64,000 bases of DNA from Actinomycetes bacterium. Its GTDB lineage: Bacteria > Actinomycetota > Acidimicrobiia > Acidimicrobiales > Ilumatobacteraceae. Under the pieces are notes generated by a model. The model made no database searches, was not told the DNA's origin, and was given only the letters and a program-made list of their open reading frames with translations. Below are positions 37,392 through 41,033 of the stretch, one piece after another. The number at the start of each line of letters is the position of its first letter. The first letter of the stretch is position 1. The stretch spans positions 1-64,000 of the forward strand of contig JAIXWJ010000037.1 in assembly GCA_027491335.1 (NCBI GenBank), read 5' to 3'. The position numbers and the translations under genes were made by a program.

Positions 37392-37895
37392 ATGGCGAGA
37401 AAAGCGACGACGGACGAGGGCTCCAGCCTCGTGGAGACGGTGATCGCCGTGTCGTTGATGGGCCTGGTGGTGGCCGGTGTTCTCGGGGCCATGTGGTCGT
37501 CGGTTCGTCTGTCGCGATTCTCCGACGACCAAGCCAAGGTGGAAGCGGTCCTGGGCAGTGCCGCGGACCGATTGGCCAACTACGCGTACATCCCCTGCCC
37601 CACGATCTCCGGAAACGGTGGCTATCTGCCCATCGTCCAAGCCGCCGCCGGCACGGTGGATTGGCCCACTTCCACCGTCACCCTCGTCTCGTTGCGCTAC
37701 TGGTTACCCACGTCGGCGTCGGAGGGAACGTGGGCCACCACCAACGGCTTGTCGGGAACTCAGTGCAACGAGTCGGCATCGCTCACCACGGCTCGCACGC
37801 TGCAGCTGATCACCATCTCGGTGACGTCGCCATCGGGCTACAGCAAACAACTCGAGGTGGTGAAGAACAATGTCTTTCCCCGCATCATCTCGTGA
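37392..37895 (+). CDS. Type IV prepilin-like protein
   Basis: 167 residues from the ATG at 37392. There is a short charged leader, then the prepilin peptidase site G10^SSLVETVIAVSLMGLV with Glu at mature position 5. A hydrophobic helix to about residue 30 and a small globular domain with two or three Cys (C58 in IPCPTIS, later TQCNES) follow. This is a pilin or pseudopilin of the GspI/PilV kind by position and size. Its 3' end overlaps the vWA prepilin gene by 26 bp. Confidence 0.82.
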   Translation: MARKATTDEGSSLVETVIAVSLMGLVVAGVLGAMWSSVRLSRFSDDQAKVEAVLGSAADRLANYAYIPCPTISGNGGYLPIVQAAAGTVDWPTSTVTLVSLRYWLPTSASEGTWATTNGLSGTQCNESASLTTARTLQLITISVTSPSGYSKQLEVVKNNVFPRIIS

Positions 37896-39576
37896 CTCTC
37901 GTGATCGGGGCATGACCCTCGTCGAGTTGCTCATCACGGTCACCATCCTCGGGATCATCATGTCGTCGTTGGCCGCGGCCGTCATCGTGATGCTTCGCGC
38001 CGAGGCGCCCACCCGTGATCGCATCGCCGAGTCGAAGGACGTCACCTTCCTGCAAGCATGGATTCCCACCGATCTGGCCTCGGCCGTGTCGCGAAACACC
38101 GATCCACTGCACCAACCGGCCGCCGCATCACCGCTGCCGGGAACGAACGTGATCACCATCTCGCGGCCCGACCTCTCGAACCCCGCGTCGACCACCTACG
38201 TGACGATCAGTTATCGCTACGTGCAGGACGGTGACGAGTGGCAACTCCGGCGCTACGAGATTCGCAACGCCACCGGACCCGATCCCGACGTCACGCAGGT
38301 GGGGGTGGCCCACGAATTGGCGGCCCCACCAGCCACGTGGTCTCCTTCGCAAGCGCCCGTGCACGCGGTTCGGGTGACGGCACGAAACCAAGTGGTGCTT
38401 CGGCCCATCGGCGAGGACATCGACGTCACCTTCGCCAGCGGCGAGGTGTTCACCACCGGCGGCGCGGGTCTGTCGTCGGAGGATCAGTTGCCCACGAACT
38501 ACAGCGGAGGAATCGTCGATCCCGCCGCGCCACCGAGCCGGTGTGGCGGGACGGTGACCATCGTCCTCGACACGTCCTCGTCCGTTCCGTCGCAGAATGG
38601 TCAGACCGCTCTCGTCAACGCGGCCCTCGGCTTCATCGATGCCTACACCGGCACCCCGACCTTCATGCGAATCGTCGGATTCGACGTGTCCGCGTACTCG
38701 TATTATCCGACGACCGCCGGGCAGTACGTGAACATCCTCAATCCGTCGACGTCACTCACGGCCATGCGCAACAAGGTCGACGCACAGGACACGTCCGCGG
38801 GACGCTGGGGCGGCGGCACCAACTGGGAGGATGGACTCTGGCAGGCGTTCAGAACCACGGCGGGCACACCATTCGCGCAACTCCCCGAGTTGGTGGTGTT
38901 CGTGTCCGATGGTGAACCCAATCGCAATCGCACCAACCTGCCGAACGATGGCGACACCCGTTACAACTCGACGGACCTGTCGCGCGCCGTCACCGCGGCG
39001 AACTACGGGCGAGGAACCGGCGCCCGAGTCGTCGGCGTTCTCGTCGGCAACGACGCCAGCACCACGAATCAGGACCGAATGCGCAACGTCGTGGGCCCGA
39101 TCACATGGAACGGATCCGGCCCCACGAATCTGGGCAACGCCGCCGCGGCCGACTTCTTCCTTCCCGCCAACTCGGCGTCCTTCGCCCAGTTGGGGAACGT
39201 GTTGCGCGCGATCAGCGCCGCCCAATGCGGTGGAACCGTGACCGTGCAGAAGCGCATCGAAGTGAACGGTTCGCTCGTCGATGCCGCCGGCGTGTGGAAC
39301 TACACCACCGACGTGGGCGTTCGGGAACTCGACCATTCGACGTCGTCGTCGATCACGTTCGACTACACCTTCGCCTCGGGAACGACGAGTCGAGTCGTGC
39401 GCATCGGCGAGACACCGGTGTCCGGATACACCTTCGTGCGCGCCGAGTGCAGTTCCGGTGGCGTGCCGCTACCGGCCGGTCGCATCTCGGCTCCCACCGA
39501 TGGCACCTCCGGAGTGGTCGTCACCCTCACCCCCGACGAAGCGGTGTCCTGTCTCATGATCTCGAGGCCCTCATGA
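37870..39576 (+). CDS. Modular prepilin with von Willebrand A domain
   Basis: 568 residues. The prepilin motif G14^MTLVELLITVTILG has Glu19 at mature position 5 and is followed by a pilin-type N-domain (to about 215). A vWA domain spans about 226-450 with a full MIDAS: D234/S236/S238 (LDTSSS), T317 (GGGTNWED) and D347 (VSDGEPN). Cys225 and Cys453 sit just outside the domain, each in CGGTVT, and could close it by a disulfide. Residues about 454-566 look like a prealbumin/Ig-type beta domain with Cys527 and Cys561. Modular minor pilins with vWA heads are known adhesins in Streptococcus sanguinis (PilB). It probably sits at a pilus tip. Confidence 0.88.
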   Translation: MSFPASSRDSRDRGMTLVELLITVTILGIIMSSLAAAVIVMLRAEAPTRDRIAESKDVTFLQAWIPTDLASAVSRNTDPLHQPAAASPLPGTNVITISRPDLSNPASTTYVTISYRYVQDGDEWQLRRYEIRNATGPDPDVTQVGVAHELAAPPATWSPSQAPVHAVRVTARNQVVLRPIGEDIDVTFASGEVFTTGGAGLSSEDQLPTNYSGGIVDPAAPPSRCGGTVTIVLDTSSSVPSQNGQTALVNAALGFIDAYTGTPTFMRIVGFDVSAYSYYPTTAGQYVNILNPSTSLTAMRNKVDAQDTSAGRWGGGTNWEDGLWQAFRTTAGTPFAQLPELVVFVSDGEPNRNRTNLPNDGDTRYNSTDLSRAVTAANYGRGTGARVVGVLVGNDASTTNQDRMRNVVGPITWNGSGPTNLGNAAAADFFLPANSASFAQLGNVLRAISAAQCGGTVTVQKRIEVNGSLVDAAGVWNYTTDVGVRELDHSTSSSITFDYTFASGTTSRVVRIGETPVSGYTFVRAECSSGGVPLPAGRISAPTDGTSGVVVTLTPDEAVSCLMISRPS

Positions 39577-41033
39577 ACCGCGACACTCGAGACTCCGGAT
39601 CGGCGCTGTTGATGGTGATGATCCTGATGGTCGTGGGTGGCGTGATCGCCACCGGACTCTTGACGTATTCCCAGGCGGTGATTCGAGCTCGTCCCGCACT
39701 GCACGAACGCATCACCGGTGCCGAGGCCGTGAAGTCCGGCACCCGTATGGCCATCACGTTGCAGCGCGAGTTCGGGCCGTCCGATTGCTTCACTCGGTCC
39801 GTTCGTTGGACGATCGCCGACACCGCGGTCACGGCCACGTGTTCCTCTCTCTCCAGCTACACCACCGGCCGGGGACGAATCGGAACGATCATCACCGCCA
39901 ACGGTGGAGGTCCCTCCAACATCGTGACGCCGAGTTGGGCCGGGAACGTGTCGACGGCGTTGCTGGGCGACGTGTCGATCAACACCGGCGCACTCGGATC
40001 GTCATCGTCGAGTCTTCTGTCCCGCGGTGCGGCTGGTGCGTTCGTCTGGACCCCCACGAACACCGGTTGGTGGCAGATGGTGGGCGACCTCGACGGATCC
40101 ACCCGCGCGTATCCCGCACTCCCCCAAGTGCCCAGCTACTCGCGACCGGGGTCGCAAGCCGCGATCGGCTCGTGCGTTCTCTACTACCCGGGTCGCTATT
40201 TGGGGACCACTCCCATGACGTTGACCGGCGGCACGCATTACTTCGCCTCCGGCGTGTACTACTTCGAACGACCGATCGTCGTCTCGGGCGGTGCGCAGGT
40301 GGTGTTCGGAGAGGGCCTTCACTCCGGATGCGCCGTCGATGCTCAGGCGGCCTACGCCAGCACCGCGCCCAAGAGCCACGAGATCACCGGCAAGGGTGCC
40401 ACGATCCTGCTGGGTGACGTCGCCACCCTCACGGTTCAGGAATCATCGGTGCGCATCAATCGACGGGTGTCGACGGCGTCCACCCGTGGCAGCGAAGGAG
40501 TGTCGATCCGTACGGTCAACTTCGGACAGTCGAACGCGTCGGTGACGATTCCGGCCGACACGGTGCTGCTGGCCGATGGCTCCACTTCTCCGGTCGCGAC
40601 GCATTCGATCGTCCCCATCGCCAACTCGAGCCCGGTGTCGTATCGCACTTCCTCGCTCGTGCCGGCAACCGCGTGGGCGATCGACGTCCGACTGAGTGGG
40701 TCCAACGTGTCGGCGAATCGATTCATCGCCGATGGATACGTCTTCGTTCCCAACGCCGGCGTACGCGTGACCGGCAACTCATCGGCGTACGCGTTGTCCA
40801 GCACCGGCGGCGTGGTGGCCATGCGCGTCGAGCACTCGATGAACACCGCCCCCTCGGTGGCGAACAACTACGCCACCGGCATCGTGTCCGAGACGATTCA
40901 ACGACGCGTGCGGTTGTCGGTGATCGAGGACTCCGACATGGACTCCGGAGCGCCTGGTGCGGTCTCGACCGCGGTGCTCGAGGTGCACTCCGATCGCAGT
41001 TACGCGATCAACTCCTGGGTGATCGACCCGTGA
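39573..41033 (+). CDS. Prepilin-like protein, PilX/GspK-type N-terminus, beta-rich
   Basis: 486 residues from an ATG overlapping the previous stop (ATGA). The leader MNRDTRDSG^SALLMVMILMVVGG has a cleavable glycine but Met, not Glu, at mature position 5, as in PilX/GspK-type minor pilins. The rest is Ser/Thr/Gly-rich and beta-strand-like, with GGTHYFASGVYYFERPIVVSGGAQVVFGEG-type short turns that would suit a beta-helix (I give only the pattern, not a fold call). With the two upstream genes it forms a minor-pilin set. Confidence 0.75.
   Translation: MNRDTRDSGSALLMVMILMVVGGVIATGLLTYSQAVIRARPALHERITGAEAVKSGTRMAITLQREFGPSDCFTRSVRWTIADTAVTATCSSLSSYTTGRGRIGTIITANGGGPSNIVTPSWAGNVSTALLGDVSINTGALGSSSSSLLSRGAAGAFVWTPTNTGWWQMVGDLDGSTRAYPALPQVPSYSRPGSQAAIGSCVLYYPGRYLGTTPMTLTGGTHYFASGVYYFERPIVVSGGAQVVFGEGLHSGCAVDAQAAYASTAPKSHEITGKGATILLGDVATLTVQESSVRINRRVSTASTRGSEGVSIRTVNFGQSNASVTIPADTVLLADGSTSPVATHSIVPIANSSPVSYRTSSLVPATAWAIDVRLSGSNVSANRFIADGYVFVPNAGVRVTGNSSAYALSSTGGVVAMRVEHSMNTAPSVANNYATGIVSETIQRRVRLSVIEDSDMDSGAPGAVSTAVLEVHSDRSYAINSWVIDP

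Follow-up and report, generated by a model that had tools for sequence, protein, structure and literature searches.

Gene W, a single open frame on the plus strand at positions 37870-39576 of the window (the whole 64,000-nucleotide stretch of DNA analysed here), is predicted to encode a modular prepilin of 568 residues, in which a pilin module is followed by a von Willebrand A (vWA) domain and a C-terminal beta domain, and it lies between genes V and X in a conserved operon of three genes, V-W-X (37392-41033). In the reading that we favour, to which we give a probability of roughly two in three, V, W and X form the tip of a retractable type IV pilus, with W as a vWA-headed minor pilin that either binds a ligand or senses contact; a freshwater actinobacterium, and with it about a quarter of its family, would probably use such a tip to hold on to surfaces or to sense them. 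The operon is laid out as follows:

37392-37895, plus strand: gene V, small prepilin of 167 residues, GspI/PilV-like, leader ...DEG^SSLVE with Glu at mature position +5
37870-39576, plus strand: gene W, modular prepilin of 568 residues (pilin module, vWA, C-terminal beta domain)
37870-37911, plus strand: W leader peptide, residues 1-14, MSFPASSRDSRDRG, predicted cut after G14 (N_methyl; D12 and G14 conserved)
37912-38463, plus strand: W pilin module, residues 15-198, N-terminal helix up to residue 70 and beta-sheet after it (AlphaFold)
38464-38538, plus strand: W linker, residues 199-223, low confidence (pLDDT <50)
38545-39228, plus strand: W vWA domain, residues 226-453 (Pfam VWA, AlphaFold model, Foldseek)
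38569-38583, plus strand: W metal-site motif DTSSS, i.e. D234, S236 and S238, invariant in alignment A1
38818-38820, plus strand: W metal-site T317, invariant in A1
38908-38910, plus strand: W metal-site D347, invariant in A1
39229-39573, plus strand: W C-terminal beta-sandwich, prealbumin/SpaA-like, residues 454-568 (SpaA_4 in 10 of 21 members; model strands 456-567)
39573-41033, plus strand: gene X, large PilX/GspK-like protein of 486 residues, leader ...DSG^SALLM without Glu5

The earlier note had described this frame as a type IV prepilin stalk joined to a vWA domain and a C-terminal beta domain, and all of the residues that it named (G14, E19, D234/S236/S238, T317 and D347) are in place. 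The N_methyl motif scores over its Pfam cut-off (E 3.9e-7) and sets the cleavage after G14, with the Glu (E19) at mature position +5. The Pfam VWA match of W itself is slightly below the cut-off (E 6.1e-4; 20.5 bits vs 23.8), and that to SpaA_4, which has a prealbumin-like fold, has an E of 0.011 over residues 470-563; when the 21 members of alignment A1 (W and 20 homologues) are scanned, VWA is found in 17 (best E 1.2e-10) and SpaA_4 in 10 (best E 8.8e-6), so that the domain calls rest on more than one weak match. A codon-usage caller placed the start further in, at an ATG (37912) that encodes mature residue 1. The upstream start, 37870, is favoured on the conservation of the basic leader and its closing D-x-G, D12 and G14 being near-invariant among the homologues. 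A spurious long open frame or a fusion of frames was considered and ruled out, as the architecture repeats in dozens of genomes and is under strong purifying selection. As judged from sequence and model, W appears to be a modular type IV pilin, i.e. one with an N_methyl motif and, on its pilin module, an extra domain that is not specific to pili.

The AlphaFold model of W, computed on A1 (mean pLDDT 72), has a helix at 17-70, pilin strands at 92-198, a loose linker at 199-223, an alternating alpha/beta vWA fold at 227-453 and a C-terminal beta-sandwich, with the leader and helix residues 40-56 as its low-confidence parts. The vWA fold beside the pilin N-helix, which had been predicted from the letters, is thus seen in the model, and Foldseek against the PDB agrees with it: the SpaC pilus adhesin ranks second (E 3.6e-8) and S. 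sanguinis PilB (7b7p) third (E 1.2e-7), together with many integrin I-domains (TMt about 0.7). The whole-query TM of these matches is low, at about 0.3, as expected of several loosely joined domains, which means that they back the vWA rather than the full arrangement. A phmmer search of W against the PDB gave no matches, and 7b7p was absent among the matches listed at E<=0.01 in the W profile search.

The overall identity of the W homologues drops to 27-40%, and all five metal-site residues (D234/S236/S238, T317 and D347) are invariant in 20 of 20 of them, at identities down to 27%; on these alignments, the conservation of the metal-site residues is not due to chance. The dN/dS of the whole of W is 0.07-0.12 against the closest orthologues, and against the two closest (Nei-Gojobori) it amounts to 0.013 and 0.038 for the vWA and to 0.09-0.16 for the pilin and C-terminal parts, the vWA being the most constrained part of W in the closest pairs (ratios against more distant orthologues are unreliable, since synonymous change is saturated). 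Such strong conservation of the vWA suggests a ligand that stays the same, or a mechanical function, rather than an arms race. In the vWA prepilins of three genomes (L053, L057 and L059, of G338, G232 and G102, respectively), repeat-rich inserts of a few hundred residues (YQRSFH..., ...YTAPFTTWTSITQSAYNSGNT...) lie inside the vWA, after the V392 strand, where they could form long arms near the metal site.

The three genes of the operon are tightly packed, the W start overlapping the V end by 26 nt and the X start overlapping the W stop (ATGA). V adjoins W in every complete locus examined, and, truncated contigs aside, the relatives that were read share the order V-W-X. G10 and E15 of V are invariant in 17 sequences, and its HMM matches are weak and of the ComGE/GspI type (E 0.04-0.13); the models of the named minor-pilin families (PilV/W/X, GspI/J/K) gave weak matches for V and W and none for X. 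V and W retain Gly-1 and Glu+5, and X is without Glu5 in 18 of 18 sequences. The operon therefore resembles the PilVWX/GspIJK set, as far as its sequences tell, in gene adjacency and in the Glu5 pattern, which is kept in the I- and J-like members and absent from the K-like one. In the HIJK complex, published work puts the minor pilin that lacks Glu5 at the very tip, as its cap (PMC10191384, PMC7541494), and this precedent makes the tip position likely, independent of the size of any head. In the complete genome G006 (L054 and L063), two neighbouring V-W-X operons were observed, each with a vWA-bearing W.

Type IV pilus machinery, for which the earlier note had asked to look elsewhere in the genome, was found on contig C46, at locus L021, a different contig from that of the V-W-X operon:

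L021 7619-8821: PilB
L021 8833-10044: PilC
L021 10047-10811, minus strand: PilD
L021 10862-11965: PilT
L021 12182-12523, minus strand: major pilin

PilT is over the NCBIfam cut-off, and PilD, an A24 prepilin peptidase, is over that of Pfam; the PilB- and PilC-like matches are strong but under the equivalog cut-offs, and the major pilin is an N_methyl pilin. A Tad (type IVc) cluster (L020 3627-6862) is carried by the same contig. The conserved synteny that had been proposed is borne out in relatives, where the V-W-X order and the proximity to pilT are kept: in 15 genomes the distance between W and pilT is 2.3-4.6 kb, and the cluster of G102, with genes assigned by sequence inspection and the PilT match, reads major pilin, V, W, X, one other gene, PilT, PilD and PilC. 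Across the family, W is present in 60 of 222 genomes (best E below 1e-40; some partial) and PilT in 56, with 48 genomes having both, 12 only W (many of these being incomplete MAGs), 8 only PilT and 154 neither (Fisher p 8e-29, uncorrected for phylogeny or genome size); G251, from the same genus as the window and 97% complete, has neither. A GTDB contig scan for W returned 12 close relatives, all on MAG contigs. Among the matches listed (397 genomes across the phylum), full-length matches to W are confined to Ilumatobacteraceae, and the same fusion elsewhere in the phylum is unsupported, as the listed matches outside the family span either the pilin module or the vWA and never the whole protein. 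G095 has the vWA and the C-terminal part without the stem. A V-W-X operon 75% identical to that in the window also occurs on two MAG contigs, L014 and L015, whose title, Bifidobacterium breve, is probably a wrong label for Acidimicrobiia.

In the model that we favour, W would be a low-abundance (minor) pilin, cut by PilD after G14, that may join V and X in a complex of the PilV-PilW-PilX/GspI-GspJ-GspK type, which would start assembly and remain at the tip; the fibre, a retractable type IV pilus, would be built by the PilB/PilC/PilD/PilT of contig C46. At the tip, the linker would hold the vWA, with its predicted Mg/Mn site, away from the fibre, allowing it to bind a ligand or a surface, following which PilT-driven retraction may pull the cell to its target or signal contact.

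The slow evolution of the vWA relative to the rest of W, unlike a typical host-range adhesin, would also suit a PilY1-like mechanosensor or a priming or cork part, which changes shape under force or stops retraction and has no specific partner; in P. aeruginosa and M. xanthus the PilY1 vWA is tied to surface sensing and retraction arrest (PMC7541494, PMC8806160). We consider a role of this kind unlikely, given that the heads found on related stems are of the adhesion type, which points to ligand binding. The N-terminal stem recurs, in similar form, in prepilins elsewhere in the G006 chromosome, with Big_9 and an ice-binding-like adhesive domain as heads, and in G185, with eleven fn3 domains, and X homologues bear PA14 or TIG domains (L051 8283-11309; L054 14619-18437), so that the head of the third tip protein varies too. 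A function mainly in DNA uptake, with Thermus ComZ/PilA2 as the parallel for a V-W-X tip that acts as the DNA receptor, is decidedly improbable. ComEC is present in the window's genome (C76:22938, E 1.2e-45), but it is widespread; the X model (helix 9-67 with a beta-rich body after it) hints at a beta-rich insert placed ahead of the final pilin strands, as in ComZ (PMC6561018), but this model is poor (pLDDT 60), and Foldseek of X matched no solved structure at E<=0.001. The vWA metal site, moreover, is typical of protein ligands, and although the lack of a PilM match would suit a Com pilus, PilT is present, which Com pili do not have (PMC10191384).

PilM was not found, with no match over the cut-off in 13 family genomes with PilT-bearing pilus systems (including G000, G006, G321 and G134) and with the four weak matches that were read being MreB by sequence; PilN gave none over the cut-off either, in a search whose control reached its cut-off in no more than 2 genomes out of 14. 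Type IVa pili have PilMNO and Com pili have neither PilMNO nor PilT (PMC10191384), whereas PilT is present here, and the combination of PilT with an undetected PilM means that the pilus cannot be filed cleanly as type IVa or Com; a divergence of PilM beyond the reach of Pfam is possible, and the system may depart from the textbook type IVa pilus. As a tentative and rather doubtful extension, the pilus could be retractable and PilM-less, with a V-W-X tip that has interchangeable heads (vWA, Ig-like, fn3, ice-binding-like, PA14, TIG) on two pilin stems, W and X. If this is true, a head-swapping tip would replace PilY1, in a pilus type intermediate between Com and type IVa; the PilY1 beta-propeller (PF05567) had no match in the genome, but the controls were silent too. 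That the operon serves the Tad pilus of the same genome could be argued from the TadA-type ATPase (E 1.7e-68) and the platform-like, Flp-like and TadE-like genes that share a contig with the PilB set. The leaders of W and V are, however, of the N_methyl/Glu5 type of T4a/Com pilins, and the operon adjoins pilT, pilD, pilC and the major pilin in relatives and follows PilT across the family, so that the Tad system was rejected as the home of W and its chance of being so is put as very slight indeed.

The metal-dependent, ligand-binding pilus tip that the earlier note had predicted is partly supported, by the fold, the machinery, the synteny and, as regards the tip, the operon context, which the note had missed; the novelty is narrower than its title suggests. 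The vWA modular minor pilin of S. sanguinis, which it had cited, belongs to a published class, and a count across bacteria arrived at 264 modular pilin architectures, some of those illustrated being actinobacterial (PMC8179133). Our literature search found no paper on vWA minor pilins of type IV pili in Actinobacteria or Acidimicrobiia; type IVa and Tad genes have been reported, without pilin detail, in UBA5794 (Acidimicrobiia) (PMC12008989), and earlier work on actinobacterial type IV pili had dealt with the Tad type (PMC6916266). What is new is the taxon, the VWX-type operon and the swapping of heads on a shared stem, and the present case is that of a vWA on the W pilin of such an operon, with a prealbumin-like third domain, conserved in one actinobacterial family. 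Little is known of how actinobacterial plankton make contact with particles, algae and each other, and W offers a concrete candidate for a tip subunit linked to a retraction motor. The shared stem with its different heads also allows the idea of the "grafted module" to be compared within one family.

Among known systems, S. sanguinis PilB (7b7p; PMC8179133) is like W in being a large minor pilin of a monoderm and in joining a prepilin module, a linker and a vWA with a five-residue metal site. It differs in that no sequence relation to W, such as would mark an orthologue, is detectable and in that W has a further beta domain at its C-terminus and is part of a V-W-X operon; in S. sanguinis, PilA/PilB/PilC stand in for the four-pilin set. 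In P. aeruginosa and M. xanthus, PilY1/PilC1 with PilVWX/FimU likewise displays a vWA at the tip on a minor-pilin complex. There, however, the vWA belongs to PilY1, a protein of its own with a beta-propeller and no pilin part, as used by other bacteria, whereas here it is fused directly to the W minor pilin. With GspI-GspJ-GspK and Thermus PilA2-ComZ the operon shares neighbouring genes and a Glu5 that is present in the I- and J-like subunits and missing from the large K-like one; unlike in GspIJK, the vWA is on the J-like subunit, and a beta-solenoid in the K-like body (X) is a hint only. Finally, SpaC and RrgA are like W in having a vWA metal-site head, that of a Gram-positive pilus-tip adhesin, but theirs are covalent sortase pili, which are assembled in an unrelated way.
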